The translations under genes were made by a program, and so were the position numbers. The notes under the pieces were generated by a model. That model saw nothing but the letters and a program-made list of their open reading frames with translations. It did no database searches and was not told where the DNA came from. Shown here piece by piece: positions 8,086-28,961 of a DNA stretch of 44,354 bases. This DNA is from an uncultured Lachnospiraceae bacterium (GTDB taxonomy: Bacteria; Bacillota; Clostridia; Lachnospirales; Lachnospiraceae), in assembly GCA_947627365.1 (NCBI GenBank), contig CANQVT010000020.1, positions 1-44,354 of the forward strand. The letters run 5' to 3'. Position 1 is the stretch's first letter. Every line of letters begins with the position of its first letter.

Positions 8086-9303
8086 TTACGCGGCAGGTGT
8101 GACTTCCGTCTCCATCTCGCTCGTGTCCATCAGTGCCGCAAATACCGGGCTGAGGGCAATGCCCATCGCGTCGATCCCCAGTGTGCTGAACGAAGTGCCC
8201 AGCTCCTCTGCCGCCGCGTCTTCATCCATATCGCTCAGCATGATCGCGCTGTCCATATCCACGGAATCCATGGTGAACGCCTCGCCCTCATGCGTGCCCA
8301 TGGCCGCACTTATGCTCACGCCAAACGGCATCCCCATGCTCACGCCGGTGATAGCGACATCCACCGCATCTCCGCTCTCGCCAAAGCTCTTGTTTGCAGC
8401 CACATGCACTTCGCCGCTCTCCGGCGTGCCGTCGTCAACCTTCACATAGACGTCCGCCAGATTGTTCAGGCCGTCAACCGTACCCTTGGTGACGCTTCCG
8501 GATATCTGAAGCGCGTTGACCTCTCCAAGCAGCTCCTCGCTCAGGTTGGCCGGCTCGCCGTTCACATAAATCATATCCAGGATCTTGCAGAGCGTGTCAA
8601 TGCCAAAGCTGAACTCAGTCTTGTTGTAAGTACCGTCGGCAACGCTGATCTCCTCGCCGTTGATGCCGGTCAGTACGCCGCCCAGCTCGACGGTCTCCGG
8701 ACCGGTGATGCACTCTTCGATCACAGCCGCGATGTCGCCCTCCACGGTAACCTCCTGCAGCTCCTCTTCCGCAACAACAGCCTCGGTCTCCGGCTCCACG
8801 ACAGCTTCTGTCTCCGGCTCTGCCGGCAACTCGGCAGGTATATTCATACCCTGTACGATGCTGTCCGCAACTGCCTTCGTGTCGATGCTCTGGAGGATGC
8901 CGATCAGCGACTGAATCCCTTCGTCCATGTAGCGCGACATCACGACCGCCGGATCAATCAGATAATCCTTAACGCCAAGGGTTGGACTCTCCAGATGGAG
9001 CGCTGCAAGCGTATCCGTGCCGGTGAAGCACACCACGGCAGCTGTCTCGCCATCCACATCCAGATGCAGACTGATCGCCGCCAGCTCATCTTCTGTGGCA
9101 GTGACGTCCACTTCCAGATTCACACCCGTGAGATCAATGACCTGTTCGCCGCTTGTGATGCGCAGGTTCGACAGTTTGATGCTCTCCGTCGTCGCAGCCG
9201 CGGTCTCCTCCGCGAACGCGCAGGTGCAGCTTCCGAGCAGCATTGCCGCACTCAGCACCGCCGCCATCAGCTTCTTGCCTAAACTTCTCTTTCTTGTTTG
9301 CAT
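8086..9303 (-). CDS. Secreted acidic protein of unknown function under the ECF-type promoter
   Basis: The protein has 405 residues with a classic signal peptide (KR-rich start, hydrophobic core to about residue 25, AFA/EE cleavage site; LLGSC could also be read as a weak lipobox). The mature part is very acidic, rich in Ala/Glu/Asp/Val, with a Glu/Pro-rich repeat near the middle (two EPETEAVV units). I recognise no family. It is the last gene of the RiPP run and has its own ECF-type promoter (9337-9361), so it probably belongs to the same regulon. An envelope target, immunity or product-binding role would be a guess. An AAGGAG site precedes the ATG at 9303. Confidence 0.8.
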   Translation of the reverse strand: MQTRKRSLGKKLMAAVLSAAMLLGSCTCAFAEETAAATTESIKLSNLRITSGEQVIDLTGVNLEVDVTATEDELAAISLHLDVDGETAAVVCFTGTDTLAALHLESPTLGVKDYLIDPAVVMSRYMDEGIQSLIGILQSIDTKAVADSIVQGMNIPAELPAEPETEAVVEPETEAVVAEEELQEVTVEGDIAAVIEECITGPETVELGGVLTGINGEEISVADGTYNKTEFSFGIDTLCKILDMIYVNGEPANLSEELLGEVNALQISGSVTKGTVDGLNNLADVYVKVDDGTPESGEVHVAANKSFGESGDAVDVAITGVSMGMPFGVSISAAMGTHEGEAFTMDSVDMDSAIMLSDMDEDAAAEELGTSFSTLGIDAMGIALSPVFAALMDTSEMETEVTPAA

Positions 9304-9336
9304 GTTCTCTTTCTCCTTTTCATGAAAAGATTATTT

Positions 9337-9361
9337 GAAACGCACACGCGTCGTTTCCATA
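9337..9361 (-). promoter_or_regulatory. ECF-type promoter A (secreted protein gene)
   Basis: On the minus strand: TATGGAA, exactly 12 nt, CGTTTC followed by AAAT. It matches five other promoters in this locus in both elements and spacing. It lies 33 nt upstream of the ATG at 9303. Confidence 0.7.
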
Positions 9362-9398
9362 AAATTTTTGCCTCTGTCTCAGTCGCCGGCTCCACTGC

Positions 9399-9641
9399 TT
9401 AGAATAAGAACTTCATCAGATTTACGGCATTCGGCCCGTATGACTTCAGCCAGCTGGGTATGTTCATCCCGCCTGCGACGCTGTCCAGAGCATCATCATC
9501 GAGCTCGCCCTGCGCGCCGGAAAACGCGAGAATCTCTTCCGCCTCTTCCTTCGTCATTTCCTTGCCATACTCCTTCGCAATGGCAATCATCTCTTCCGCC
9601 GACTTTGCATCCTTCAGTTTCTTGAACATTTCTTCGTTCAT
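9399..9641 (-). CDS. Nif11-type RiPP precursor (core with SYGPNAV)
   Basis: The protein has 80 residues. The leader (1-58) is of Nif11 type: AKSAEEMIAIAKEYG, then GELDDDALDSVAGG with a double-glycine end. The predicted core is 22 residues, opens MNIPSWLKSYGPN and closes AVNLMKFLF; it has no Cys, Ser-Trp near the start and a hydrophobic tail. The core shares (K/R)xYGPxxV with the precursor at 10596-10868. GGAGG lies 7-8 nt before the ATG. It begins 24 nt after the metallopeptidase gene, so the two are co-transcribed. As the core lacks Cys, thioether chemistry is unlikely; epimerisation or C-methylation would be possible. Confidence 0.85.
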   Translation of the reverse strand: MNEEMFKKLKDAKSAEEMIAIAKEYGKEMTKEEAEEILAFSGAQGELDDDALDSVAGGMNIPSWLKSYGPNAVNLMKFLF

Positions 9642-9665
9642 GGTAACCCTCCTTAAAAATAAATT

Positions 9666-10514
9666 TTATATATTTTTTTGCCTCTCCTGAAGATACATCA
9701 GAAAATCCCAGCTGTCAATCTCCCGCCTTTCAAGCGACTCCTGCTCAATCCACTTCAGCAAGCCGTACACCTTCGCCGCAAGGTCGGGAATAGAAGCCTT
9801 CTCCTCTTCCGAAATATAATTCTCCAGTCTGCCGCCCGTGTACCCGTTCTCTGACACGCCCAGAAACAAGCCCGCCAGCTTCGCATCGTAATGCCCCAGC
9901 GCCTTTCGGATGCCGATCGCGTCCGCCACGATCTCGTCCCAGACGGCTTCTTTCTGCTGCGGAAACAGCCTCCGGCAGATCACATGCGTGCACTCGTGGT
10001 ACAGCCGGATCTTTCTCGAAATCTCCAGCCAGTCCCCCTGCGGCATGCCCGAGCGCTCGGCGGATACCCCGCTGTACGGCCCGTCGCTCAAAATGATCAG
10101 GGTGTCCCGATAATTCCCGCGGTCCGAGGTGAAGCGCTTCCATTCCTCCGCCCAGTCCGTATGTCCGGCAGCCAGATACGCCGTCCTGTGATCGTTGATC
10201 TTTTTCCAGTTGGCAAGTCCGTCGACCGTCATCGCCCCGAGCGTGAAAGGGATTTCCTCCGGCCGGCAGCGGTAGACCAGCAGCCGGAGCGCGTTTTCAA
10301 AGTCCTCCCTGCGGTACAGGTACAAGACCTTCACCGGACCCGCCGGCGTCTGTTCCTTCGTCAGCAGATCCCTGCCGCTTCCCCTGAACAGCTCCAGGGA
10401 GGGATTCTCCGGCCTGTTTCCCCGCAGCGCCGCGTCCTTGTACGCGTCCTCCATGCCCTCCCCGGGTCTCAGGTATAATTGCGGATAGCACTCCGCCAAA
10501 GCTTCCAGCACCAT
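9666..10514 (-). CDS. Putative zinc metallopeptidase (HExxH) between two Nif11 precursors
   Basis: The protein has 282 residues from ATG 10514, chosen because GGGAGG lies 7 nt upstream; an in-frame TTG 33 nt earlier has no good site. The only recognised motif is YHECTHVICRR (HExxH, gluzincin-like), followed about 20 residues later by WDEIVADAIGI, a likely third metal ligand as in EExxAD-type endings. There is no signal peptide and no membrane helix, so it should act in the cytoplasm. I do not recognise the rest. It sits in one operon with two Nif11-type precursors, so a role in removing leaders or in immunity is a reasonable inference. It might also be catalytically active on something else. 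Confidence 0.68.
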   Translation of the reverse strand: MVLEALAECYPQLYLRPGEGMEDAYKDAALRGNRPENPSLELFRGSGRDLLTKEQTPAGPVKVLYLYRREDFENALRLLVYRCRPEEIPFTLGAMTVDGLANWKKINDHRTAYLAAGHTDWAEEWKRFTSDRGNYRDTLIILSDGPYSGVSAERSGMPQGDWLEISRKIRLYHECTHVICRRLFPQQKEAVWDEIVADAIGIRKALGHYDAKLAGLFLGVSENGYTGGRLENYISEEEKASIPDLAAKVYGLLKWIEQESLERREIDSWDFLMYLQERQKNI

Positions 10515-10595
10515 CTGGTTTCCTCCCGTCTCCTGCCAGCCCTCCAAAATCCTGAAACGGCTTCTGCTGTAAAAAGCTGACTTTCCTTCTCCTGA

Positions 10596-10868
10596 TTAAA
10601 TGTCATAATACGCACACAATGCCGGCACTACACCGGGTCCATACTTCCTGATCTGCTCATCTACGTAACCCCAGTCAATCTTTCCGCCCGCAATGCCCTC
10701 CAGCTCGTCATCGGCAAGCCCGCCCTGCGCACCCATCTGCTCGGCCAGGGTCTTCATCTGTTCCCCGGTCACCTCCCCGCCATATTCTTTGACAATGGCC
10801 ATAAGCTCCTCCGCGGACTTTGCCTCTTTCAGCTTCGCCACCATCTCGCTTGCCAGTTTCTCGTCCAT
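10596..10868 (-). CDS. Nif11-type RiPP precursor (core with KYGPGVV)
   Basis: The protein has 90 residues from the ATG at 10868, which has GGGAGG 7 nt upstream. Longer in-frame upstream sequence runs through the promoter and is not protein-like. The leader (1-62) carries AKSAEELMAIVKEYGGEV and ends LADDELEGIAGG. The predicted core is 28 residues, starting KIDWGYVDEQIRKYGPG and ending LCAYYDI, with a single Cys. It shares (K/R)xYGPxxV with the precursor at 9399-9641. It has its own ECF-type promoter (10897-10921). Confidence 0.86.
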   Translation of the reverse strand: MDEKLASEMVAKLKEAKSAEELMAIVKEYGGEVTGEQMKTLAEQMGAQGGLADDELEGIAGGKIDWGYVDEQIRKYGPGVVPALCAYYDI

Positions 10869-10896
10869 AGTGATCCCTCCCTGCCCTGATTTATAT

Positions 10897-10921
10897 GAAA
10901 CGCGCTTGCATCGTTTCCCTG
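10897..10921 (-). promoter_or_regulatory. ECF-type promoter B (Nif11 precursor, metallopeptidase)
   Basis: On the minus strand: CAGGGAA, 12 nt, CGTTTC followed by ATATAA. Spacing is identical to the other five. It lies 28 nt before the ATG at 10868 and can drive the precursor, the metallopeptidase and the next precursor. Confidence 0.72.
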
Positions 10922-10940
10922 AATTTGCTTTCCTGATATT

Positions 10941-10965
10941 GATACGCCGCAATACGCGCCTCTAA
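10941..10965 (-). promoter_or_regulatory. Possible second ECF-type promoter (weak -35)
   Basis: A perfect CGTATC-AATAT -10 block (10941-10946) lies just behind the stop of the zinc-ribbon precursor, but the -35 position reads TTAGAGG rather than AACAGAA. It may be a tandem partner of promoter B or a decayed copy. Confidence 0.35.
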
Positions 10966-11165
10966 AACGGCCTCTCCTGCAAAAGACCGACGGTAAATTT
11001 CCCTTTTTCCTTGCAGGCCTTGCTGCAATACGTCTCTCCGTAGGTTGCGAATCTCTTCCCGCAGACCGGGCAGGTCTTGTTGTACATTCCGTATCCGCCC
11101 GCCGCGCTCTCCGTCTTCTCGTCTGAAAGCTCCTCATTCCCTTTTTTGTTTGTCTCTTCACTCAT
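10962..11165 (-). CDS. Short-leader RiPP precursor with zinc-ribbon-like core
   Basis: The protein has 67 residues. The first 24 end NEELSDEKTESAAGG, the same leader terminus seen in the NHLP and Nif11 precursors of this locus, but without their long helical part. The remaining 43 residues hold CPVCGKRF and YCSKACKEKG, a four-Cys zinc-ribbon pattern like that of small DUF2116-type proteins. It has its own ECF-type promoter (11227-11251) in the same position as the true precursors. It may be a precursor whose core binds metal, or a small regulatory zinc protein using a leader-like tag for export. Confidence 0.72.
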   Translation of the reverse strand: MSEETNKKGNEELSDEKTESAAGGYGMYNKTCPVCGKRFATYGETYCSKACKEKGKFTVGLLQERPF

Positions 11166-11226
11166 GTTAATTCCTCCTTCTTATTTAATATTCTATTTCA
11201 TCCTGATTTTTGCTTTCCTGTTTATT

Positions 11227-11251
11227 GATACGCCGCAGCGTGCATTCTGTT
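11227..11251 (-). promoter_or_regulatory. ECF-type promoter D (zinc-ribbon precursor)
   Basis: On the minus strand: AACAGAA (11245-11251), 12 nt, CGTATC (11227-11232) followed by AATA. This is one of the best matches to the consensus of the locus. It lies 61 nt before the ATG at 11165. Confidence 0.78.
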
Positions 11252-11293
11252 AGGATAAAAAATCAGGTACCATCCCTTTTTGCGATTATAATT

Positions 11294-12646
11294 TCACGCC
11301 CACCGCACATAGCCTCTCTCATACAGGTACTGAAATTTCTGCCAGAGCAGAAGCGCGCGGCGATCCTGCGCAGAAAGCGTCCGGCAAAGCTCTGCAAATG
11401 TGACCGGCGCCTCCCGGACGAGCCGGACTGCCTGCAGGAAGTCCTCGTCCTTCGCCAGGCTGCAGCCCACGCCGTCTCCCCAGAATTCCAGGGTGTCTTC
11501 CTTTTCCGCGATCCTGCACGCCGCGTTGAAGTACAGCGCTCTGTCTTCGGGTAGCTCTGCGCGCGCCCACGTCCCGAACAGACGCCTCATGCCTGCCTCG
11601 AACTCGCCAGCGTCCGCGAATGTAAGTGTCTCACGGATGGAATATCCATTCGGATACTCCGCCGACGGCAGCTCCGGTTCCATGAACTCCATGGTCTTTC
11701 TCACCATATTCACCCGCAGCCCTGCGGTGCAGCCGATCCCGTAACGGATAAATTTCTCTCTGCCCTCCTGACCCATGCGCTCGCAGAGGCGGAAAGCCCT
11801 CCCTGAAAGGGAATACTTCGTCATCGACTCCGGGTTGCCCGGCAGAAGCTCAATGTTCTTCAGCTCATCCTGACTGTAGATCTCCTGTATCTTCTCCAGC
11901 TGGCGCAGACTGCGTACGCTGAAACGCAGCGCCGCCCTTTGCATGGCGTCCGGCCCCAGCTCTTTCATGTAGGCGCGGATGCGCTTTGGATCCCGCTCCG
12001 CTATGGCCGTCGTCGTCTGCGGAACCAGCCCTGTGACCGAGCGGAAATCATATATGAATCTCTCATAGTCCGGATTGTCGAACGGTTCCGTCGCCATGTA
12101 GCAGGCGCCCGCGCCCCCGATACGCCCCAGATAGCGGACGCCGGCCTTAAGAATCTCTCTCCACAGCGCGGCGTTCTCCGGCGTGTAGGCAAAATTGCCT
12201 TTCCATCGCGGCGCGTCCACGCCGCAGAACGGACACTGCACGCTGCATCCGTCGCTCAGCTCAAACACAAGCGGGTAATAATAGACCGCCCCGTGCTTCC
12301 GGATCAGACGGCTCTCCATGCAGCATCTTCTGTGCACCTGCCGGCTCCAAAGGCGGATCCCGCGGTCGGCATAGGCGTCGTCCGCGATCCTGGCCTCATA
12401 TTCCTCCATGGCTTCCCTCTGGTGCTCCCGGTATTCCCTCAGATAGCGATTCTGCTCTTCCGGAACACGAAGCTCCCGCGTATGCCCGAGCAAAATATCG
12501 CACGCTTCCAGTGCCAACTCGGCATCAAGAGGGATGCCGCGTTCCTGCAGGGTCTCCAGCGGCCGCGTCCGCATCTGCTCACGGAAGGAAGGATCCGCGG
12601 TATAGTTTTCCACAAAATATTTTATGTATGGAACATCTCTGTGCAT
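11294..12646 (-). CDS. PoyD-like radical SAM peptide epimerase
   Basis: The protein has 450 residues. The radical SAM cluster motif is Cys134-x3-Cys138-x2-Cys141 inside FELSDGCSVQCPFCGVDAP, which closely recalls the ELS.GCSVGCWFCG block of the PoyD family of RiPP epimerases (D-amino-acid formation). The first 50 residues (FREQMRTRPLETLQERGIPL) look like the degenerate leader-like helix of NHLP precursors and may be a recognition domain. It is the last gene of the exporter operon, 25 nt behind ABC2. Likely substrates are the NHLP or Nif11 peptides of the locus. Assignment to this family is from motif memory and not from a search. Confidence 0.75.
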   Translation of the reverse strand: MHRDVPYIKYFVENYTADPSFREQMRTRPLETLQERGIPLDAELALEACDILLGHTRELRVPEEQNRYLREYREHQREAMEEYEARIADDAYADRGIRLWSRQVHRRCCMESRLIRKHGAVYYYPLVFELSDGCSVQCPFCGVDAPRWKGNFAYTPENAALWREILKAGVRYLGRIGGAGACYMATEPFDNPDYERFIYDFRSVTGLVPQTTTAIAERDPKRIRAYMKELGPDAMQRAALRFSVRSLRQLEKIQEIYSQDELKNIELLPGNPESMTKYSLSGRAFRLCERMGQEGREKFIRYGIGCTAGLRVNMVRKTMEFMEPELPSAEYPNGYSIRETLTFADAGEFEAGMRRLFGTWARAELPEDRALYFNAACRIAEKEDTLEFWGDGVGCSLAKDEDFLQAVRLVREAPVTFAELCRTLSAQDRRALLLWQKFQYLYERGYVRWA

Positions 12647-12671
12647 TTCTTCGCCCCTGTCTTTGTATTCG

Positions 12672-14858
12672 TTAGGAATTCTTTTGGCTTTCCAGCTGCT
12701 GGCGCTCCACCAGCTTCGCGAAGAATCCGTCCGCCGCGATCAGCTCGTCGTAGCTCCCGTCCTCCACGATATGCCCGCGGTCGAGCACGATGATGCGGTC
12801 GCACTCCCGGATCGTGGAGAGCCGGTGCGCGATGACGATGCGGGTGCAGTCCAGCTTTCTCATGGTATCCGCCACCTGCTTCTGCGTGATGTTGTCCAGC
12901 GCGCTCGTCGCCTCGTCGAGCATCAGAATTCCCGGCTTCGGGGCAATGGCCCGCGCAATCATGATCCGCTGACGCTGACCGCCCGAAAGGCCTCCCGAAC
13001 CGCTCGTAACGTGCGTGTACATCCCCAGCGGCATGCTACGGATATCCTCCGCGCTCCCGGACATCTCAGCCGCCTCCCAGGCCTCCTCCTCCGTCAGATG
13101 AGGCGCGCAGATTGCGATGTTGGAAAAAATGGTTCCCGCGAAGAGGTCGCCGTTCTGGTTGACGACGCCGATCCGTCTGCGCAGCATGCGCAGGTCAAAG
13201 TCCGCGATGTTCCGCCTGTCGTAATAGACCGCCCCCTTCTGCGGAGCTTCCAGTCCGAGCATAATGCGCATGAGAGTGGACTTCCCGCAGCCGGTGTTGC
13301 CGACGATCGCTACGTATTCGCCGCGGTTGATCTTCAGGCTCAGGTCGTCCAGAATGAGCGGCATATCGCTGCTGTACTGAAAGGATACATGGTTCAGCTC
13401 GATCGATCCGTTGAGCTTGCGGACCATCTCCTTGTTCTGCTGCTCTCCCGGCGTCTCCTCCAGGATCGGTCCGACCATGCGCAGGACGGGTCTCACCTGG
13501 GCCAGCAGGAAGGACACATCCGAAAGCCGGAGAAACGCGGCGGACACCATGCCGTACGCCGTGCAGAACGCATAGTACTCCGAGACGCTGACGCCGCTTT
13601 TTATGGCGGCGGCGTAGGTCCACAGCGTGCCGAGCAGCAGGATAGCCGAAGAGATCACCTGACGATACCGCAGCATCGGTCCGGGACGGTTGTAGATCTC
13701 CTCCACCTTCGTATAGCTGTCCGCCCAGTGCGCGAAAGCCCTCTTCTCCGCCCCGGCCGCCTTGATCTTCTGGATGCCGGACATCAGCCCGAATTCCAGT
13801 CCGGAGGACTTCACCTGGTACTCAAGCTGCCGGTCCATCTGGCGGATCTTCGCGGCGGCGGTCATACCGGAAAAGATAGCCCCGGCGAAGATCACCGCAA
13901 GCGTCGGCAGAACCAGCGCGGGCGCGAAGGTAAAGATCTGCACCACATAGGCGAGCGACAGCGCCGCCGTGAGCGCGTGGGTCAGGACAGCGGAGGTCAG
14001 CAGGGTACACAGATCCCCGATCCTCTGCAGCCTGCTCGAGAGCTCACCCGGACTGTACTCCCGGAAAAACGACAGCGGCAAATTCAAAAGCCGCATGTAG
14101 ACGGCCGAGGTGGCGGCCGTGTTGATTTTGCTGCTCACCCTGGAGATCAGAAGCCGGTTCACGGACTTGATCAGCGGGATGGCGAGCGTGATGCAGAGGA
14201 AAAAGATGGCCGTCGAGGCGAAGAGGCTGAAGCTGTCCCCCGGAATGACCTCGGCAATCATAAAATTGCTCAGCAGCGGCAGCAGCATCCCCAATATGGT
14301 GAAAGCTGCCGTCACGCCGACGATCATCAGAAACTCCGACCTCGAGACAGCCTCCATGCAAAAGCGCAGGAGCTTCCCCGGGGTGATGCGCTCCCTCGGC
14401 AGAGGACGGTAAAAGCAGATTGCCTCATTCTCGAACTGAGCCTCACCAGCGCGCGTCACCTTCTTCCACACACCCCTGTCGTAGCAGCGGTATCCGAACA
14501 GCAGGGACGGCAGAAACGCCACGACGCCGCCGGTCTTCTTCATCCCGATCATCGGCCCCACGGCGGTATTTCTCCACCCCTTCTCCAGGCGGACGGTGCT
14601 GTGCATGCTCCCGGACGGGCGGAGCTGATATTCCAGCATCTCGCTGATATCCTCGATCTCTATGGGCAGCTCCCTCGTCTGAAAGCCGTAGTATTTCAGG
14701 ATCTCGTCGATCGCATTCTTCGCGACCTGACGCTCGTTGTTCATCGCCTCGGTGATCTTTTTCCCCATGACGGCGCCGACCATCCCCGCGAACGCTTCCT
14801 GAAATCTCTCCTCGTCATTCTTCAGCCTGCCGCGTATCTGTTCCTCATAGATTCCCAA
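12672..14858 (-). CDS. NHLM-type exporter, ABC2 subunit (copy 1)
   Basis: The protein has 728 residues. A cytoplasmic N-terminal domain (about 1-170, no peptidase) precedes the six-helix membrane domain (about 175-440) and an ATPase domain with Walker A GNTGCGKST, signature LSGGQRQR, Walker B ILMLDEATS and H-loop AHRLST. This layout is that of the second ATP-binding subunit of NHLM bacteriocin exporters. It pairs with ABC1, which ends 12 nt upstream. It is a full-length paralogue of the protein at 24073-26283. Confidence 0.9.
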   Translation of the reverse strand: MGIYEEQIRGRLKNDEERFQEAFAGMVGAVMGKKITEAMNNERQVAKNAIDEILKYYGFQTRELPIEIEDISEMLEYQLRPSGSMHSTVRLEKGWRNTAVGPMIGMKKTGGVVAFLPSLLFGYRCYDRGVWKKVTRAGEAQFENEAICFYRPLPRERITPGKLLRFCMEAVSRSEFLMIVGVTAAFTILGMLLPLLSNFMIAEVIPGDSFSLFASTAIFFLCITLAIPLIKSVNRLLISRVSSKINTAATSAVYMRLLNLPLSFFREYSPGELSSRLQRIGDLCTLLTSAVLTHALTAALSLAYVVQIFTFAPALVLPTLAVIFAGAIFSGMTAAAKIRQMDRQLEYQVKSSGLEFGLMSGIQKIKAAGAEKRAFAHWADSYTKVEEIYNRPGPMLRYRQVISSAILLLGTLWTYAAAIKSGVSVSEYYAFCTAYGMVSAAFLRLSDVSFLLAQVRPVLRMVGPILEETPGEQQNKEMVRKLNGSIELNHVSFQYSSDMPLILDDLSLKINRGEYVAIVGNTGCGKSTLMRIMLGLEAPQKGAVYYDRRNIADFDLRMLRRRIGVVNQNGDLFAGTIFSNIAICAPHLTEEEAWEAAEMSGSAEDIRSMPLGMYTHVTSGSGGLSGGQRQRIMIARAIAPKPGILMLDEATSALDNITQKQVADTMRKLDCTRIVIAHRLSTIRECDRIIVLDRGHIVEDGSYDELIAADGFFAKLVERQQLESQKNS

Positions 14859-14870
14859 GCGCGTCTCCTC

Positions 14871-19855: not shown

Positions 19856-20155
19856 TTACTTGTCGAGGCTGACGCCGGTGCCCTGCGCGGCGCAGGCATT
19901 GCCGCCGCAGCTGCCGCCCGCCACATTGTCGAGCTCCTCGTCGCTCAGCGGCGCGCCGTTGGTGTAGACTGCGTCGATGCCGTCGCCCTTCTCGATCACC
20001 TGGATGGAGTATCCCTCCGGGACGGCAAGCCCTGTAAACTCCTCTACGGTCTTGACCGGATCCTTGCAGAATTCCTCGCGGAACGCCGGATCCTGTGCCG
20101 CCTTTTCCTTTATCTGCGCGTATACCTCGTTGATCTTTTCAGCTGTCCATGCCAT
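19856..20155 (-). CDS. NHLP-type RiPP precursor, short Cys core
   Basis: The protein has 99 residues. The leader resembles the nitrile hydratase alpha subunit (NHLP): AFREEFCKDPVKTVEEFTGL, VPEGYSIQVIEKGDG and the end LSDEELDNVAGG. The predicted core is 18 residues (SCGGNACAAQGTGVSLDK) with two Cys. The motif CGGNACAAQG is shared with the other NHLP precursor (CGGEACAAAG). The gene ends 2 nt before the radical SAM/SPASM gene. A GGAGG-like site precedes the ATG at 20155. Confidence 0.9.
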   Translation of the reverse strand: MAWTAEKINEVYAQIKEKAAQDPAFREEFCKDPVKTVEEFTGLAVPEGYSIQVIEKGDGIDAVYTNGAPLSDEELDNVAGGSCGGNACAAQGTGVSLDK

Positions 20156-20250: not shown

Positions 20251-20646
20251 TCAGATAATACTTCCCGCTGCGGCGCAGGCTTCCCCGCCGCAAACGAATT
20301 CTGCCACACAGCCCTTTGCCGCGCATGCTCCCACGTCGGGTCCCACGCCCACAGCCGCCGCGCAGGCAGAGACGATCAGGAGCATGCTCAGACCTCCCGC
20401 CGCCGTCTCGGACTCCTCATCCGTCAGCTCTCTCCCGATCATATCGGGGAGAACCATGGTCGCCGTGTAGGACGGATCATTCTCAATCACCTTGAGCTTA
20501 AAGCCGTCCGGCAGCTTCTCGCCTGTGAACGCTTCGATCGCCTTTGTCGGGTCGGCCAGAAGCTCCTTGCGGAACGCCTCGTCGGTCATCGCTTTTTTCT
20601 GCACGCTGACGTACAGCTCCTCCAGTTTCTGTTGTGTCCATTCCAT
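20251..20646 (-). CDS. NHLP-type RiPP precursor, long Cys/Ala/Gly core
   Basis: The protein has 131 residues. The leader (1-85) is of NHLP type: AFRKELLADPTKAIEAFTGEKLP, then LTDEESETAAGG. The core of about 46 residues is hydrophobic at first (LSMLLIVSACAAAVG), then has further Cys and small residues, ending CGGEACAAAGSII. It has five Cys in all and shares CGGxACAAxG with the neighbouring precursor. AAAGGAGG precedes the ATG, and an ECF-type promoter lies at 20683-20707. Targets for SPASM crosslinking, C-methylation and epimerisation are all present in the core, but none is proven. Confidence 0.9.
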   Translation of the reverse strand: MEWTQQKLEELYVSVQKKAMTDEAFRKELLADPTKAIEAFTGEKLPDGFKLKVIENDPSYTATMVLPDMIGRELTDEESETAAGGLSMLLIVSACAAAVGVGPDVGACAAKGCVAEFVCGGEACAAAGSII

Positions 20647-22532: not shown

Positions 22533-22558
22533 CGCGCACACCCCCTCTTGCTACAGTT

Positions 22559-23092
22559 TCAAAAAATTCCAGCTTCAGCCAGACAGCGCCGCAGCTTTCT
22601 CATCGCGTTGTGCTGGAGGACGCGGACGTTCGCGTAGCTGACGCCGACGCGCATCGCGGTCTCCTGAGCGGAAAGCCCGTCATAAAAACGAAAGATCACA
22701 ATATTGCGCTCCCGCTCGGGAAGCTGCTCCAGCGCTTCGGCGAGCGCCTCCAACAGCTCCTGCCTCAACAGCCGGCTGTCCACATCCCCGGACAACGAGG
22801 AAACACCATTTTGCGGCTCCATCCGGTCCAGCTCCTCCAGCTCGGTCGGCTCCGGAGAGCGCCCTCGCCTGCGGTAGTAGTCGGTCACCGCGTTGCGTGT
22901 GATGGCGTAGAGCCAGGTCCCGGGCGCAGCCCGCGAGGGATCATAGCCATCCAGCGCTGCGATCGCGTTCACAAAAACCTGCTGCTTCAAATCCGCCCTG
23001 TCCTGCATGTCCGACACATGGGAGCTTATGTACCGCTCTACCTTCTCGTGATAATCCCGGTAGAGCGCTTCGGGCGTGATCGCGGTGCTCAT
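22559..23092 (-). CDS. ECF-type RNA polymerase sigma factor
   Basis: The protein has 177 residues. Region 2 (about 8-85) includes DLKQQVFVNAIAALDGYDP and WLYAITRNAVTDYYRRR. Region 4 (about 122-175) includes LPERERNIVIFRFYDGLSAQ and the helix-turn-helix AMRVGVSYANVRVLQHNAM. No membrane anti-sigma gene is adjacent; instead a 65-residue protein is translationally coupled upstream (ATG inside its stop region). Its own promoter (23320-23344) belongs to the motif set seen before the precursors, so it likely drives them and itself. Confidence 0.92.
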   Translation of the reverse strand: MSTAITPEALYRDYHEKVERYISSHVSDMQDRADLKQQVFVNAIAALDGYDPSRAAPGTWLYAITRNAVTDYYRRRGRSPEPTELEELDRMEPQNGVSSLSGDVDSRLLRQELLEALAEALEQLPERERNIVIFRFYDGLSAQETAMRVGVSYANVRVLQHNAMRKLRRCLAEAGIF

Positions 23093-23286
23093 GGCTTATC
23101 CTCGTCTTTCGTCTGGGTCCGCCAGGCGTCCGCATCCCCGGCAGCGTTCAGCTCCAGCTCGCTGTCGTCCAGCAGCATGCCGTCCCCCGCCTCCTGCGCG
23201 GCCCGGATCAGCCGATCCAGCCGTTTGTTTCCGGCGAAGCGCTGAAAGTCAAACAGCGTCCGCACTATCTGTTCCGTTCTGTCCAT
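23089..23286 (-). CDS. Small ECF-coupled protein with leader-like end
   Basis: The protein has 65 residues. The N-terminal half is a basic amphipathic helix region (IVRTLFDFQRFAGNKRLDRL), followed by an acidic LLDDSELELNAAGD block and a polar tail. The acidic block imitates the leader terminus of the precursors (LSDEELDNVAGG, LDDDALDSVAGG). The stop overlaps the start of the ECF gene by 4 bp, so the two are made together. A role as sigma-binding regulator, possibly tied to export or cleavage through the leader-like block, is inference. It has no membrane helix. Confidence 0.75.
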   Translation of the reverse strand: MDRTEQIVRTLFDFQRFAGNKRLDRLIRAAQEAGDGMLLDDSELELNAAGDADAWRTQTKDEDKP

Positions 23287-23319
23287 AGAATCGGCTCCTC
23301 CTTTTGCCTTTTGTATATT

Positions 23320-23344
23320 GATACGCCGGACATGCAGTTTTGTT
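23320..23344 (-). promoter_or_regulatory. ECF-type promoter C (autoregulation of the sigma gene)
   Basis: On the minus strand: AACAAAA (23338-23344), 12 nt, CGTATC (23320-23325) followed by AATATA. It lies 33 nt before the ATG at 23286, and so in front of the ECF operon. The same motif precedes the precursor genes, which implies positive autoregulation. Confidence 0.78.
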
Positions 23345-23366
23345 TGGATTTTTTAAACTTGTTTTC

Positions 23367-23438
23367 ATTATACCATAGATCAGAAGAGCATTTGTGCCCG
23401 CCGATCTGACGTTTGTGCAATCAGAGCTGACGTTTGTG
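23367..23438 (-). promoter_or_regulatory. LytTR-type triple repeat over a sigma-A promoter
   Basis: Three 9-bp boxes read on the plus strand: GCATTTGTG (23388-23396), ACGTTTGTG (23409-23417) and ACGTTTGTG (23430-23438). Their period is exactly 21 bp, two helix turns, as in AgrA/LytTR direct repeats. On the minus strand a perfect TATAAT (23367-23372) follows at a distance that puts the nearest box over the poor -35 (ACAAAT). This is the layout of a LytTR-activated promoter that reads into promoter C and the ECF operon. The likely activator is encoded at 37573-38292. The stretch from 23439 to 23513 holds nothing else I recognise. Confidence 0.7.
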
Positions 23439-23513
23439 TAATCGGCGGCCCCTTCTCGCAATAGCAGCAAATGCGACAGCAGCAAGTCTTCCTCTCGAGG
23501 GTCTGTGCATAAG

Positions 23514-23549: not shown

Positions 23550-23606
23550 CAGTCCCCTTCCGCATTGATACTTTCATTTTTTACGGCGCAGCGCCGTGCG
23601 CCGCCT

Positions 23607-23972
23607 TTATCGCATCTGTACACGACCGGAACTCCCGGATCCGCCGGTATTTTGCTTGTTCACTTCACAGTACATCCAACCATCGTGGTGCGTATGCGAG
23701 TAACCGCAGAGCGTACACCAATTCAAGCCGTTGGTGCATTTTTTGCAGCCGTAAAACGGCGACACGATCAGATAGCCGTCGTCGGTATACTTGCCGCCGC
23801 CCGCGACTGCGCCCAGCTCCGCGTCTGAGAGCTCTCCGGCGGTATGCGCCGCGTCATAAAGATTCTTCGCCTCTTCCTGCGTGAGCTTCTGCCCCTGAGC
23901 CTGAAAGAGCTCCATGATCTCCTCCGCGGACTTCGCCGCTTTCACTTTCTCCATGATTTCCTTCTGATTCAT
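23607..23972 (-). CDS. Nif11-type RiPP precursor with Cys/His-rich core
   Basis: The protein has 121 residues. The leader (1-59) carries AKSAEEIMELFQAQGQKLT and ends GELSDAELGAVAGG. The core of about 62 residues has YGCKKCTNGLNWCTLCGYSH, then HHDGWMYC, and a Gly/Ser-rich tail. Two CxxC pairs plus His and a fifth Cys suggest metal binding (zinc-ribbon or rubredoxin-like) or multiple crosslinks. It has its own ECF-type promoter (24028-24052) and a terminator, so it is a single-gene unit. The leader is true Nif11 type, which makes it more than a stray zinc protein. Confidence 0.85.
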   Translation of the reverse strand: MNQKEIMEKVKAAKSAEEIMELFQAQGQKLTQEEAKNLYDAAHTAGELSDAELGAVAGGGKYTDDGYLIVSPFYGCKKCTNGLNWCTLCGYSHTHHDGWMYCEVNKQNTGGSGSSGRVQMR

Positions 23973-24027
23973 ACCATGACCTCCTTAATCGTTAGAATTT
24001 GTTTTATCTTATTGCCTTTCACATCTT

Positions 24028-24052
24028 TATACGTCAGGCAAACGTTTCTGTT
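24028..24052 (-). promoter_or_regulatory. ECF-type promoter E (Cys-rich Nif11 precursor)
   Basis: On the minus strand: AACAGAA (24046-24052), 12 nt, CGTATA (24028-24033) followed by AAG. It lies 55 nt before the ATG at 23972, in the 100-nt gap behind the second exporter's ABC2 gene. Confidence 0.72.
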
Positions 24053-24072
24053 AGGAGTGTGCAAAAAAAGTT

Positions 24073-26283
24073 TTACGCCGTCGTCTGATCCGCCTCGTCC
24101 GGAGCGTCCAGGCGCTGGCGCGCCACGAGCTCGGCGAACTTCCCGTTCTTCGCGATCAGCTCCTCGTAGGTGCCGTCCTCGACGATCCTGCCCTTCTCGA
24201 GGTAGACGATGCGGTCGCAGTGTCGGATCGTGGAGAGACGGTGCGCGATGACGATCCTCGTGCACTTCAATCCGTCGAGGGACTCGGACACCTTCTTCTG
24301 CGTAAGGTTGTCGAGCGCGCTCGTGGCCTCGTCGAACATCAGGATCTTCGGCTTCGGCGCGATCGCCCTTGCGATCATCAGACGCTGACGCTGTCCGCCG
24401 GACACGCCGCCGCTGCCCTCAGAGATCATCGTGTTCATCCCCATCGGCATCCTGCGGATGTCGTCCGCGATGCCGGCCATCTCCGCCGCCTCCCACGCGT
24501 CGTCGAGCGTCAGCCACGGCGCGGAGATCGTGATGTTGGAGAAGATGTCGCCCTGGAACAGCTTGCCGGCCTGCATCACGGTGCCGATCCTGCGCCGCAA
24601 CGACTTCAGGTCGATGCCGGAGAGATCCTTGCCATCATAGTAGACCGCGCCCTTCTGCGGCGTCTCAAAGCCCAGCATGATGCGCATGAGCGTGGACTTG
24701 CCGCAGCCCGTCGCGCCGACAATCGCCACGTACTGGCCCGGACGAATCTTCAAGGAGAGATCGTCCACCACGTTCGGCATTTGGTCGTTGTAGCGAAACG
24801 ATACATTGTTCAGCTCGATGCCGCCAGAGAGCCGTGTGATCACCTGCTTGCCCTCGGACACCTCGGGCACGGTGTCCATGATCGGCTTCGCCATGTCAAG
24901 GATCGGCTTGATGTTCGCCGCGGTGAGCGCGAGTCCCGCGAGGGACAGAAACGCCCCGCTCACCATGCCGTACGCCGCGTTGAACGCGTAGTAATCTGCT
25001 ACAGAGACGCTGCTTGCGATTGCCATGTAGTACATGACGAAGGTCCCTGCCAGCGTGATCAGCGTGGTGACCACACTGTTGTAGCGGATGATCGCAGGCG
25101 GATTGTAACATACCTTTGCCTGCTTTGCGTAGAGATCTCCCCAGCGGGCGAACGCGCGCTTCTCCGCGCCGGAGAGCTTGATCTTCTGCACGCCCGTGAT
25201 CAGCGCATAGCTCATGCCGCTGACTTTGGCGCCCAGCTCCATCTGTTTGCGCGACACCCTGATCTGCGTCAGCGCGGTGACCACGGTGACAACTAAGGTT
25301 GCCAGAATGATCAGCAGCGCGGGCGCCACCAGCGCAGGCGCGTAAGCAAAGATCTGCGTAATGTAGATCAACGAAAACAGCGAGGTAAGTCCCGTCGTAA
25401 ACACAGCCTCCACCAGCATGGTGCACAGCGCGTTCATGTTCTGCGTCCGCGAGAAGAGCTCGCCTGAGCTGTAGTTCTTGAAAAACGCGGCCGGAAGCGA
25501 CATGACGCGCGCCATCGTCGCAGCCTCCACGGTGACGTTCATCTTCGTGCGGATCCTGGCCATAAAGAGATTCTTCACCGCCTCGATCATCAGCCGGGAG
25601 ACAGTCACGCAGATCATAAATATCCCGAGGGACGCAAGCAGCGCGAGATCCTTATTCTCCACGACAAGCCCGAAAAGCAGCTGGTTCAGCTTCGGGCCGA
25701 GCATTCCGACGAGGGTGACCGCAAAGGTAGCGACCGCCGCCAGAATGTAATCGGAGGGCGCGAGAATCGAGGCAATATACTTCAGTAAGTCGGCAAAGCC
25801 GATCTTCTTCAGCGGAAACGGCTTGTAGAAGGCGACCGCATCCTCCTCGAAGAGCTCCTCATTTTTCCTGGAAACCTTCACGGTTTTTCCCGTCTCGGTG
25901 TCAAAAAAGGTATATCCGCTCAAGGCTCCCGGGATGAGCGCCACGACGGAACCGTCCGACTTGCGCACGCCGAGCATCGCCCCGATGGCGTCCTTGTACC
26001 AGCCCTTCTCCAGATGAACCGTCCTGCGCATGATGCCATAAGGCCGCATGAGGAATTCAAGTTGTTCGTTCATATCTGTGATAGTCTCCGGCACTTCCTG
26101 CGACTTCACATGGTAAAATCTAAGGATCGCGTCAATCGCGTCCTTCGCGCGGCTTCTGTCGTCCGCGAAAGCCGCGGATACGCGCGCGCCCGTGACGGCG
26201 TCTGAGATCCCGAGAAACGCTTCCTCGAAGGTGTTCTGATCATGCTTCTTTCTCTCTTTTATCTGTTCGTCAAACCAACCCAT
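24073..26283 (-). CDS. NHLM-type exporter, ABC2 subunit (copy 2)
   Basis: The protein has 736 residues with a cytoplasmic N-terminal domain, a six-helix membrane domain (about 180-445), and an ATPase with Walker A GATGCGKST, signature VSGGQRQR, Walker B ILMFDEATS and H-loop AHRLST. It is a full-length paralogue of 12672-14858. It starts 12 nt behind its ABC1 partner and ends the 14-kb same-strand run that begins at the LytTR regulator. Confidence 0.9.
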   Translation of the reverse strand: MGWFDEQIKERKKHDQNTFEEAFLGISDAVTGARVSAAFADDRSRAKDAIDAILRFYHVKSQEVPETITDMNEQLEFLMRPYGIMRRTVHLEKGWYKDAIGAMLGVRKSDGSVVALIPGALSGYTFFDTETGKTVKVSRKNEELFEEDAVAFYKPFPLKKIGFADLLKYIASILAPSDYILAAVATFAVTLVGMLGPKLNQLLFGLVVENKDLALLASLGIFMICVTVSRLMIEAVKNLFMARIRTKMNVTVEAATMARVMSLPAAFFKNYSSGELFSRTQNMNALCTMLVEAVFTTGLTSLFSLIYITQIFAYAPALVAPALLIILATLVVTVVTALTQIRVSRKQMELGAKVSGMSYALITGVQKIKLSGAEKRAFARWGDLYAKQAKVCYNPPAIIRYNSVVTTLITLAGTFVMYYMAIASSVSVADYYAFNAAYGMVSGAFLSLAGLALTAANIKPILDMAKPIMDTVPEVSEGKQVITRLSGGIELNNVSFRYNDQMPNVVDDLSLKIRPGQYVAIVGATGCGKSTLMRIMLGFETPQKGAVYYDGKDLSGIDLKSLRRRIGTVMQAGKLFQGDIFSNITISAPWLTLDDAWEAAEMAGIADDIRRMPMGMNTMISEGSGGVSGGQRQRLMIARAIAPKPKILMFDEATSALDNLTQKKVSESLDGLKCTRIVIAHRLSTIRHCDRIVYLEKGRIVEDGTYEELIAKNGKFAELVARQRLDAPDEADQTTA

Positions 26284-26295
26284 GATCTCACCTCC

Positions 26296-28479
26296 TTATT
26301 CGTTCGAAACGAGCTGCGTATAGTAGCCATTCTTTGCGTACAGTTCCTCGTGCGTCCCACGCTCCACGACCTTGCCGTGATCCATGACGATGATCTCGTC
26401 GCAGTCCCGGATGGTCGAGAGCCGGTGCGCCACCACGACACAGGTGATGCCCCTGTCCTTGATGGACTTCACCACCTCGTACTCGGTCTTGGCGTCGAGC
26501 GCGCTCGTGGCCTCGTCCAAAATGATGATGGTCGGATCCTGCGCCAGGACGCGGGCGATCTCCATACGCTGGCGCTGCCCGCCCGAGAAATCCTGCCCGC
26601 CCTCGGTGAGCACGTAATCATACCCGCCGTCGCGCTGCATGATGTCTTCATGGAGCTGGGCGTCCTTCGCCGCGAGGATCATCTCAAAGTCCTCGATGGA
26701 ATCGTCCCACATCTTGATGTTGTTCCGTATTGTGTCCTCAAAGAGGATGATGTCCTGATCCACAACCGCGAGCGAGCCTGTAAACACGCTGCGGTCGATG
26801 TCCTTCATCGGCTTGCCGTCGAAGAGGATCTCTCCGCTCCACGGCTGATAGAGTCCGGAGATTAGCTTGGAGAGCGTCGACTTGCCGCAGCCTGAGCCGC
26901 CGACAAAGGCCACGCGGCTGCCGGTCTTGAGCGTCAGATTGAAATCCTCGATCAACGGTTCGGCGAGCCGGGAGTAACCAAAGGTCACATTTTTCAGCTC
27001 CACATTGCCCGAGAGCTTATCGAATTCAGCATCCTCGCCGTCCTTGTTCTCATCGTTGTAATTGACGTCGAGCGGGTACTCCATGACGTCCTCGACGCGC
27101 TCCATCTGGGTGCGCATCTCCTGAATGGACTGCCCCGCCTCGATCAGCTGCATCGCCGGTCCCGTGAACGCGCTTAAGAAGCCCTGGAACGCCATCACCA
27201 TACCGACCGTGAAATGTCCCTGGATCGCAAACAGTACGCCCAGGATCAGCACGATGTTGTTGGCCAGCTCGGTGATCACCGTCGGGATCATCCCGAGGTA
27301 TTCGTTCAACTTCGCGAAACGCACCTGCTGGGTGTTCACGCTGGCCTGATAGCCCGCCCATTTCTCATAGTAGCCGGTCTCCGCGCCGCTCGCCTTGATC
27401 GTCTCGATCATCTCGATGCCCGCGACCGTCGAGCCAGCCAGCTTGCCAGCGTCGCGCATCTGCACGCGGGTGATGTTGACACGCTTCGCGGAGATGACGC
27501 GCGACATCGCCACGTTGATCAGGATCGAAGCGATGCCCACCAGCGCCAGCACCGGGCTGTAGCGCAACATGACGACGAGGTAGAAGACCATCATCGCCGC
27601 GTTCAGCACGAGCGGAGCGAAAGTGTTCACGAGCGTATCCGCAATGGTGGCGCTCGCATCCTGTCGCTGCTGGATGTCGCCCGCCATGCGCTGTGAGAAG
27701 AATTCCATCGGCATCCGCAGCACCTTCCACAGGAAGGAGGTGTTCCCGACCGCGGCGAGCTTACCCTGGATCAGGTAATTTGTCTTCGCCTGGACAAACG
27801 CCACCACAAGCTGCATGACAGAGATAAACGCCAGCGCGGCAAAGAACGGCCAGAACCATTCCGGATTCTGATGCGTGAGTAGCCGATCCAGGAAGATCCG
27901 TGAAAATGCCGGCTGGATAATGCCGATGATCGAGGTGATCGTCGTCGTGAGAATGACAAAGACGATCGCCGCCTCCGCACCGACCAGTCGCTTTCTCGCA
28001 AAGGACAACACGCTCTTCGGCTTTCCACCCGGCTCGAAGCTCTCCGTCGGCTCGAACATCAGGCAGATGCCCGTAAAGCTCTGGTCGAAGGTCTCCATCG
28101 AGACGGTATAGTTGCCCTTCGCGGGATCGTTCAGGACGACCTTGTCCCCCTTAAACCCGCAGAGGACGACGAAGTGATTGAAATTCCAGTGGATGATGCA
28201 GGGAAATGTCCCCTTTTCCTTCAGCATCTCCGGCTCGTAGCGGTAGCCCTTCGCCTGCAGGCCGTAGCTGCGCGCAGCCTTGAGGACGTTCTTCGCGTTT
28301 GAGCCGTCCCGGGAGACGCCGCAGTCTGCGCGAACCTGCTCAAGCGGGATCCACTTTCCGTAGTAAGCAAGGATCATCGTCAACGACGCCGCGCCGCACT
28401 CGAGCGCCTCCAGCTGCATCACGACGGGAACCTTCGCCACGCCTTTTGTGATTGGTTTGTTCTGTTTTTTCTTCACCAT
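26296..28479 (-). CDS. NHLM-type exporter ABC1 with intact C39 peptidase (copy 2)
   Basis: The protein has 727 residues: C39 peptidase (about 15-145), membrane domain, and ATPase (Walker A GGSGCGKST, signature FSGGQRQR, Walker B IIILDEATS). The catalytic set is complete: Gln22, Cys28 in LECGAASL, His102 in NHFVVLCGF and Asp118 in NDP. So this exporter should be able to cut double-glycine leaders as it exports them, and it could also serve the first locus, whose own C39 domain is degenerate. Spacing to the HlyD-like gene is 8 nt. Confidence 0.93.
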   Translation of the reverse strand: MVKKKQNKPITKGVAKVPVVMQLEALECGAASLTMILAYYGKWIPLEQVRADCGVSRDGSNAKNVLKAARSYGLQAKGYRYEPEMLKEKGTFPCIIHWNFNHFVVLCGFKGDKVVLNDPAKGNYTVSMETFDQSFTGICLMFEPTESFEPGGKPKSVLSFARKRLVGAEAAIVFVILTTTITSIIGIIQPAFSRIFLDRLLTHQNPEWFWPFFAALAFISVMQLVVAFVQAKTNYLIQGKLAAVGNTSFLWKVLRMPMEFFSQRMAGDIQQRQDASATIADTLVNTFAPLVLNAAMMVFYLVVMLRYSPVLALVGIASILINVAMSRVISAKRVNITRVQMRDAGKLAGSTVAGIEMIETIKASGAETGYYEKWAGYQASVNTQQVRFAKLNEYLGMIPTVITELANNIVLILGVLFAIQGHFTVGMVMAFQGFLSAFTGPAMQLIEAGQSIQEMRTQMERVEDVMEYPLDVNYNDENKDGEDAEFDKLSGNVELKNVTFGYSRLAEPLIEDFNLTLKTGSRVAFVGGSGCGKSTLSKLISGLYQPWSGEILFDGKPMKDIDRSVFTGSLAVVDQDIILFEDTIRNNIKMWDDSIEDFEMILAAKDAQLHEDIMQRDGGYDYVLTEGGQDFSGGQRQRMEIARVLAQDPTIIILDEATSALDAKTEYEVVKSIKDRGITCVVVAHRLSTIRDCDEIIVMDHGKVVERGTHEELYAKNGYYTQLVSNE

Positions 28480-28487
28480 AGCTCACC

Positions 28488-28961
28488 TCAGTTAAACAGG
28501 AATGACATCGGAGAGACCTGCTCCGTGACGATCGACACCTCATAGATGCCGTCCGGAAGCGTTTCGTTCAAGGTCAGAGGATAGACCCACTCGCCTTCGG
28601 AAAGTCCGCCGACGCGCAGTGCGTACTCGGGAAAGCTCTCATCCACGGCAATCGGCTCGGCGGTGATCTCCTTCACCGTATACTCCTTGTTGCCGATACG
28701 CACGATATTGCTCTGCCCGACTCCGTCGATCTCCGTCTCCTTTACGTAGCAGATGGCTGTGCCGTCCTCTGAGATGGCGACCGTGGACAACTTCGTCTCA
28801 AGGGAGCCTACGATACCCCACACAATGAAGCCTACGAGCAGCACGATGACCGCCGAGAGCGTGAGCCAAATCCCGGGATTTGTCACCCTGATGTAATCGT
28901 TCAGCTGCTCAGGTGAGGACACCCGCTCCAGACTCTTTTCCCTGAAAATTGAATTTGCCAT
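28488..28961 (-). CDS. Minimal HlyD-like membrane fusion protein of NHLM exporter (copy 2)
   Basis: The protein has 157 residues. It opens with SPEQLNDYIRVTNPGIWL, has one membrane helix (about 32-53) and a beta-rich extracellular part ending SPMSFLFN. It is a paralogue of 17102-17584 in sequence ends and position. Both lack the long coiled-coil of Gram-negative HlyD. The 86-nt gap upstream has no ECF-type promoter, so this exporter is probably read from the operon upstream. Confidence 0.72.
   Translation of the reverse strand: MANSIFREKSLERVSSPEQLNDYIRVTNPGIWLTLSAVIVLLVGFIVWGIVGSLETKLSTVAISEDGTAICYVKETEIDGVGQSNIVRIGNKEYTVKEITAEPIAVDESFPEYALRVGGLSEGEWVYPLTLNETLPDGIYEVSIVTEQVSPMSFLFN

Follow-up and report, generated by a model that had tools for sequence, protein, structure and literature searches.

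A Lachnospiraceae locus with NHLP and Nif11 precursors as the likely hub of a dispersed, ECF-controlled secreted-peptide regulon

Proteusins of the polytheonamide type combine an NHLP leader with a PoyD-type epimerase and a radical SAM C-methyltransferase, and NHLM systems join an HlyD-like protein, a C39 peptidase-ABC protein (ABC1) and a second ABC protein (ABC2) to precursors of both the NHLP and the Nif11 leader families (Haft et al. 2010, PMC2887384). Many Nif11 leaders, divergent cores and a C39 exporter characterize the prochlorosins and the lah cluster of Lachnospiraceae C6A11 in the portions of two papers drawn on here (PMC10783134, PMC6363468). The relevant portion of the second describes LahT150, a C39 domain that recognizes the last 13 leader residues, is reported to depend on Leu-12 and Leu-7 among them, and accepts Nif11 as well as nitrile-hydratase leaders for cleavage (PMC6363468). 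These features have counterparts in a 44,354-nucleotide stretch of an uncultured Lachnospiraceae bacterium (GenBank assembly GCA_947627365.1, contig CANQVT010000020.1), called the window below; it is contig C20 of its own genome, G000, a 2.82-Mb draft that is 84.5% complete. A locus at 8086..28961 on the minus strand of the window carries precursors of three leader types, three radical SAM enzymes, two exporter cassettes and a gene for an extracytoplasmic function (ECF) sigma factor. From sequence comparison, we think it likely that a regulon of secreted peptides is centred on this locus, one in which a LytTR regulator would act on the ECF factor and the ECF factor on dispersed precursors, with modification of the NHLP peptides and export in common.

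Comparison of upstream regions suggested TAACA-N15-CGTATCAA, and the predicted ECF promoter was taken as AACA-N15-CGTATMAA. Because this word was derived from the same set in which sites were then counted, weight is placed on its genome-wide distribution, on spacing and random-position controls, and on congeners. All eight exact sites of the own genome lie ahead of a leader-peptide gene (seven) or the ECF operon (one). Three are in the window, and the other five, unlinked to the locus, are spread over four other contigs: C10 has two, both ahead of Nif11 genes, C16 and C37 have one apiece, and on C51 the site precedes a gene for a 64-aa short-leader peptide ending VAGG-ISIIIPN. Six congeneric genomes hold 40 exact sites, which precede leader peptides (31), the ECF operon (3), the epimerase operon (2), a radical SAM gene (1), a carrier-protein/AMP-ligase operon (1) or nothing recognizable (2). 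Eight other spacings gave 26 matches in total over the same genomes (an average of about 3) versus the 40 for N15, and a leader-motif open reading frame (ORF) stood behind 79 (2%) of 4000 random positions of the same stretches, away from sites. When both strands of the window were scanned, the -10 word [GA]CGTAT[CA]AA was found four times in 44 kb, in every case on the minus strand and a short way ahead of either the ECF operon or a gene for a leader peptide. The carrier-protein-like and AMP-ligase-like pair that carries an ECF site (G009 C202, L076; named by eye) hints at a non-ribosomal step.

An exact search of 37 genomes gave 8, 8, 7 and 7 sites in G000, G016, G009 and G005, where the ECF factor is found at E 1e-20, against 0, 2, 2 and 1 for the reversed pattern (30 versus 5 in total). 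The other 33 genomes together held 23 sites versus 46 for the reversed pattern, G007 accounting for five of the 23; G023, with the ECF gene present, and G029, where it was not found, have five each. Sites lie ahead of the ECF operon itself in G000, G016, G023 and G071, the last belonging to another genus and having one exact site ahead of an ECF operon behind the same exporter and another ahead of a STAS-domain protein. No exact TAACA site was found in four further genomes that have only a distant protein resembling the 65-aa product encoded next to the ECF gene. Duplication of one cassette was considered as the source of the sites and rejected, because the spacers differ and the targets are varied, spanning NHLP, Nif11, short-leader and enzyme genes. 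A conserved promoter, its activity predicted, ahead of both the ECF operon and its targets is the arrangement of an autoregulated ECF regulon. On the sequence evidence, the predicted ECF promoter precedes its own operon and otherwise almost only double-glycine leader genes genome-wide, many of them unlinked; the single ECF regulon that a sequence-only reading of the window had proposed is supported, and it extends beyond the locus.

A second layer of control is suggested by LytTR-type boxes at 23408-23438, upstream of the ECF promoter of the ECF operon; tandem boxes of this type also stand ahead of several precursor genes. Published LytTR sites, in the part of the source consulted, are 9-bp repeats, mostly 12 bp apart and often about 10 bp before the -35 element (PMC6193735). 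The window boxes have a period of 21, or 9 + 12, and a LytTR regulator is encoded together with these predicted tandem sites before a promoter. In 346 kb of fetched loci, 22 tandem pairs were found at up to three mismatches per pair, all at period 21 although 20-23 was allowed, and the reversed control gave none. With one mismatch allowed, 16 whole genomes yielded 7 pairs in G000, 8 in G016, 1 in G009, 3 in G005, 6 in G023, 7 in G029 and 1 in G012, with none in the other eight congeners or G071 and one for the reversed control over all. Orthologues of the response regulator are at least 76% identical in the five other cluster-bearing congeners, 67% in G071 and at most 58% in the other nine, so the genomes with boxes and those with a regulator of at least 76% identity are the same six cluster-bearing ones, G012 adding its single box. 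Regulator and ECF gene share a contig, 7-15 kb apart, in five of the six genomes with both (G000, G016, G005, G023 and G071); in G009 they are on separate short contigs. The kinase and regulator adjoin the exporter in G023, and the kinase is near the exporter in G071. The LytTR input proposed earlier is supported by the tandem boxes and the conserved regulator, with regulator and kinase lying 7-9 kb outside 8086..28961.

The 65-aa protein is a member of a small protein family (LFxFQxF..N..L ... AAG), with relatives encoded next to other ECF genes; its AlphaFold model is of low confidence (61.7). We considered it as a seventh precursor and rejected this on account of those relatives and of a tail without GG. 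That tail, LDDSELELNAAG, is similar to the cleavage motif of a leader and might signal how heavily the C39 exporter is loaded, although gating of the ECF factor by the 65-aa protein seems to us very doubtful.

The surroundings of the ECF gene vary among relatives. In an independent assembly, L089 (uncultured Lachnospiraceae bacterium isolate Lapin-026__bin14), the SPASM gene is 98% identical and the gene order of the window is preserved all the way between the first exporter and the 405-aa gene, with both exporters present. Congener arrangements differ. In G016 and G023 there is a single exporter, the ECF and B12 genes flank the epimerase, and the 405-aa gene comes immediately behind the GNAT-like gene; in G009 the order is ECF (truncated where the contig ends), B12, NHLP 1, NHLP 2, SPASM, GNAT-like, epimerase, short-leader and Nif11; and G005 and G029 run from the epimerase to the GNAT-like gene with no ECF gene in the stretch. 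The epimerase/NHLP operon of G005 carries a site though it lies on a contig other than that of the only ECF match in that genome. Co-location in related genomes, which the sequence-only reading had named as its own test, was found in the congeners and in L089. Among 17 distant loci (SPASM identity 53-62%), most of them in assemblies of rumen and gut metagenomes and several on short contigs, the epimerase is beside the SPASM gene in all 17; 15 of these loci have an NHLP gene, 11 have both ABC genes, 8 have the B12 enzyme and 2 have the ECF gene. Eight more loci with SPASM identity of 28-38% had no epimerase match. G071 keeps the exporter, the ECF gene and the site, and its 16-kb stretch gives no match to any of the three radical SAM proteins of the window. 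The Nif11 gene just after its ECF gene (L127 7920-8121) aligns in two frames and looks broken.

These relatives bear on the possibility that this is a proteusin-like cluster of the usual kind, in which the ECF gene is unrelated, the local Nif11 genes are hitchhikers and the promoter word is read by another sigma factor. The lack of an ECF match near the core in 15 of the 17 distant relatives fits such a view, as do the five sites each in G029, where no ECF gene was found (the genome is 71% complete), and in G007, which has none. It is nonetheless quite improbable, given the sites ahead of the ECF operon in four genomes, the fact that, of the genomes examined, only cluster-bearing ones combine many sites with leader peptides behind them, and G071, where exporter, ECF gene and site persist apart from the enzymes. 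The G029, G007 and distant-locus findings also weigh against a regulon centred on this locus, and other points do so as well. The exporter genes have no exact site upstream of their own, NHLP expression in the window depends on read-through, one own-genome Nif11 gene (C10:9350) has no exact site ahead, and all genomes compared are draft assemblies. For the LytTR layer, only 9 of the 38 sites tested have an exact box in the 400 bp upstream of them, and G071 lacks a tandem box. On own-genome C10 (L035), boxes at 6943 and 9183 precede non-leader genes, for a 227-aa protein and a receiver/HD-GYP/GGDEF-like protein (named by eye), and G012 has one exact box (C145:3014) in a congener where no ECF gene was found.

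Because the core of NHLP, SPASM and PoyD genes is found again in genomes from rumen and gut, the SPASM and PoyD enzymes probably modify the NHLP cores; the Nif11 peptides have the look of cargo that shares the regulation and the export. The earlier assignments of a B12-type C-methyltransferase-like protein and a PoyD-like epimerase proved sound, with TIGR03975 (481.7 versus a cut-off of 281.85) and TIGR04517 both passed; no solved structure matches the epimerase by sequence at E 0.01. That of the SPASM maturase held as to PF04055 and the Cys motifs and fell short of any equivalog cut-off (best NF038107 CefB, 211.8 versus 600). Since the epimerase and B12 enzyme exceed curated cut-offs, and since the nearest SPASM model is a Cys-every-fifth maturase and the NHLP cores carry Cys about every fifth residue, we expect the three enzymes to introduce Cys cross-links, D-residues and C-methylation into these cores. 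The Nif11 cores are probably unmodified or handled by other enzymes; radical SAM genes adjoin Nif11 genes at G016 C22 and G005 C102. It could instead be argued that the three radical SAM enzymes form a single biosynthetic system acting in trans on all precursors, like ProcM on prochlorosins, where one promiscuous enzyme is known to serve many Nif11 precursors (from the part of PMC10783134 consulted). The promoter and leader-end motif common to the precursors would suit this, as would the Nif11 pair and short-leader gene adjoining the epimerase here and in G009. We hold it to be improbable, however: the enzymes stay with NHLP genes in distant relatives, the G071 stretch has exporter, ECF gene and Nif11 gene with no match to the enzymes, the Nif11 genes just mentioned have other radical SAM neighbours, and Nif11 cores diverge widely among the promoter-linked set. 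The mixed system first described stands as a set of genes found together, while a reading in which all six precursors are substrates of all three enzymes is not supported.

As first read, the locus encodes two NHLP, three Nif11 and one short-leader precursor, and every gene named in that reading lies where it was placed. Profile searches placed the small proteins in the NHLP and Nif11 families mostly at or just under the curated cut-offs (50.9 for TIGR03793 and 32.3 for TIGR03798), NHLP precursor 2 and each Nif11 precursor scoring just under; the Nif11 gene at 9399 rises above when its reading frame is extended by six codons ahead of the ATG. The common ending L(S/D)(D/E)(E/D)xL..(V/A)AGG fits four of the six and fails at position -7 in the first NHLP (Ser) and the short-leader protein (Thr). 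All six have L at -12, V/A/I at -4 and GG. Among 31 promoter-linked leaders of the six congeners, Leu at -12, GG and V/A/I at -4 occur in every one and Leu or Ile at -7 in 28. Given these common leader-end residues and the reported specificity of LahT150, one C39 exporter could be enough for the whole set of three leader types. The 'two exporters' are in fact two cassettes, each of a short HlyD-like, a C39-ABC and an ABC protein; the ABC pair exceeds both cut-offs in cassette 1 and lies just under both in cassette 2, and a full-length NHLM HlyD protein is lacking, as the two HlyD-like proteins (157 and 160 aa) match only the first 47 of 421 positions of TIGR03794 (cut-off 156.2).

In peptides printed from relatives, two NHLP core types recur, one starting (I/V/L)S(F/M).L...S.C and one SC..N.CGA.GCAGQ.TK-like; a first, stricter ORF filter overlooked NHLP peptides in several relatives, and the looser filter printed the peptides of some loci only. 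The double Gly and CPVCG..YCS..C of the short-leader peptide are kept in five sequences, and its AlphaFold model is of low confidence (50.6). Its core CPVCGKRF..YGETYCSKAC (window 10962-11165) looks like a zinc knuckle of the treble-clef kind carried by a secreted peptide. A conserved 5' dyad, AACGACGC..GTGCGTTT (mostly GGAAACGACGC..GTGCGTTTC), lies ahead of several Nif11 genes and the 405-aa gene, with 12 copies and none for the reversed control (window 10915 and 9355, minus strand, and L029, L031, L034, L035, L074, L075, L080, L127 and L131). A structured RNA built on GGAAACGACGC..GTGCGTTTC was rejected, as five copies fold slightly better than shuffles and no more (z -1.32 to -2.23). The heptapeptide ISIIIPN, the predicted product after the GG of a short-leader peptide, is identical in three genomes (L072, G000 C51:879; L077, G009 C230; L130, G029 C210) and is possibly a pheromone.

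Blp and Com are LytTR-controlled regulons of double-glycine bacteriocins. The present peptides might likewise be mainly unmodified pheromones or bacteriocins of class-II type in such a circuit, with the enzymes of ribosomally synthesized and post-translationally modified peptides (RiPPs) a minor addition. Several cores are short and without Cys (ISIIIPN, IFWPSKMPVHV), and LytTR-type repeats drive S. mutans bacteriocin genes in the part of the report consulted (PMC6193735). Against this stand the NHLP operon, whose three radical SAM enzymes are in or under the same ECF control, and the many Cys-rich cores, and we regard the idea as unlikely.

In the regulon that we favour, a GHKL/LytTR two-component system (AgrCA/ComDE-like) would switch on the ECF operon, and the ECF factor would amplify its own expression and activate the dispersed precursor genes in concert. 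The two NHLP peptides encoded downstream of the ECF gene would be substrates of the SPASM enzyme (probably forming Cys cross-links), of the epimerase of PoyD type and of the B12 C-methyltransferase. One or both of the NHLM exporters, with their C39 domains, would then remove the leaders by cleavage behind the GG and export the cores, among them Nif11 cores on which the enzymes of the locus probably do not act. We lean slightly towards a broader statement, that the ECF factor is dedicated to a genome-wide double-glycine secretome, grouping peptides by export signal rather than by maturase or leader family, fired by LytTR and perhaps gated by the 65-aa protein; the regulon part of this is well supported.

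Along the minus strand, the order is short HlyD-like, C39-ABC1, ABC2 and Nif11 peptide (28961 to 23607), then 65-aa protein, ECF, B12 radical SAM, NHLP 1, NHLP 2, SPASM radical SAM and GNAT-like (23286 to 17600), then short HlyD-like, C39-ABC1, ABC2, PoyD-type epimerase, 67-aa short-leader, Nif11, DUF7005, Nif11 and 405-aa protein (17584 to 8086). From the 65-aa gene through the epimerase no intergenic gap exceeds 95 bp, so this stretch could be a single transcript. Coordinates are collected in the table. A THF riboswitch (RF01831) lies at 347-441 (minus), near the left end of the window.

Table. Features of the window, with scores in bits and the curated cut-offs where given.
Feature	Coordinates	Strand	Evidence
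LytTR response regulator, proposed activator	37573..38292	-	PF00072 and PF04397 above cut-offs
GHKL histidine kinase, response-regulator partner	36083..37465	-	PF14501 above cut-off
Short HlyD-like protein, cassette 1	28488..28961	-	TIGR03794 N-terminus only, 37.1, under cut-off
C39 peptidase-ABC exporter, cassette 1	26296..28479	-	TIGR03796 951.7, above cut-off 853.3; PF03412
ABC2 exporter, cassette 1	24073..26283	-	TIGR03797 727.3, above cut-off 709.4
Predicted ECF promoter ahead of Nif11 gene	24026..24053	-	TAACA-N15-CGTATAAA
Nif11-leader precursor, Cys-rich core	23607..23972	-	TIGR03798 28.4; G016 orthologue 82%
LytTR-type tandem boxes, period 21 bp, then TATAAT	23408..23438	-	Perfect pair of ACAAACGTCA words
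Predicted ECF promoter of ECF operon	23318..23345	-	AAACA-N15-CGTATCAA
65-aa ECF-associated protein	23089..23286	-	No family match; stop/ECF start overlap 4 nt (gap -4)
ECF sigma factor	22559..23092	-	TIGR02937 108.7, above cut-off; PF04542, PF04545, PF08281
B12-type radical SAM RiPP C-methyltransferase	20721..22541	-	TIGR03975 481.7, above cut-off; CX7CX2C at residue 272
NHLP precursor 1, Ala/Gly/Cys-rich core	20251..20646	-	TIGR03793 59.5, above cut-off; core type recurs in relatives
NHLP precursor 2, core SCGGNACAAQGTGVSLDK	19856..20155	-	TIGR03793 47.7, cut-off 50.9; core type recurs
SPASM radical SAM maturase	18510..19853	-	PF04055; CX3CX2C at residue 103; C-terminal Cys cluster
GNAT-like protein, core operon	17600..18532	-	PF00583 27, above cut-off; after SPASM gene in five congeners
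Short HlyD-like protein, cassette 2	17102..17584	-	TIGR03794 37.9, under cut-off
C39 peptidase-ABC exporter, cassette 2	14871..17063	-	TIGR03796 821.1, cut-off 853.3; PF03412
ABC2 exporter, cassette 2	12672..14858	-	TIGR03797 645.9, cut-off 709.4
PoyD-type radical SAM epimerase	11294..12646	-	TIGR04517 339.3, above cut-off 325; CX3CX2C at residue 134
Predicted ECF promoter ahead of short-leader peptide	11225..11252	-	TAACA-N15-CGTATCAA
67-aa short-leader peptide, Cys4 zinc-knuckle-like core	10962..11165	-	No family above cut-off
Perfect ECF -10 word with degenerate -35, ahead of second Nif11 gene	10939..10947	-	Motif search
Nif11-leader precursor, core IDWGYVDEQIRKYGPG..	10596..10868	-	TIGR03798 26.2; core type also in G016, G005, G023, G029; likely start ATG 10868, listed ORF begins TTG 10952
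DUF7005 protein, between two Nif11 genes	9666..10547	-	PF22541 184.8
Nif11-leader precursor, core MNIPSWLKSYGPNAVNLMKFLF	9399..9641	-	TIGR03798 31.8; 40.5 in six-frame search
405-aa protein, signal-like N-terminus	8086..9303	-	No family match; 5' dyad common with Nif11 genes

Orphan Nif11 precursors far from maturases are hard to assign, and the promoter word assigns them without physical linkage, turning precursor discovery into a promoter search. It points to core families conserved between congeners (Cys-rich, KYGPG-type, ISIIIPN and zinc-knuckle-like), and the arrangement as a whole suggests a two-tier circuit, LytTR and then ECF, in gut Lachnospiraceae. In the open PMC literature, NHLP, Nif11 and an ECF sigma factor never appeared together, an absence there that is not proof. 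Nif11 with a sigma factor and precursor peptide appeared there only in methanobactin work; searches of it for RiPP, ECF sigma factor and gut gave nothing on such a regulon by title, for double-glycine secreted peptides of Lachnospiraceae nothing, and for a dispersed Nif11 leader-peptide regulon nothing by title among the matches listed.

Set beside the known systems, the locus shares with proteusins its leader, epimerase and C-methyltransferase, each above its curated cut-off, and differs in its cores with Cys about every fifth residue, its SPASM enzyme, C39-ABC export and ECF and LytTR control. From the NHLM systems of Haft et al. 2010 (PMC2887384), in whose text the words 'sigma' and 'promoter' are absent, it differs in having short HlyD-like proteins, two cassettes and promoter-linked dispersed precursors. 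CefB (NF038107) offers the nearest NCBIfam model and the same core Cys spacing, whereas the window SPASM protein reaches 211.8 of the 600 bits set as its cut-off. The prochlorosins and lah cluster have lanthipeptide chemistry, and ECF control goes unmentioned in the portions of their accounts cited above. The LytTR bacteriocin regulons of S. mutans, HdrR and BrsR, likewise have peptide genes preceded by 9-bp direct repeats with 12 bp between them (in the part consulted of PMC6193735); to that arrangement the present locus adds a second, predicted ECF layer with its own promoter, and NHLP and Nif11 leaders.

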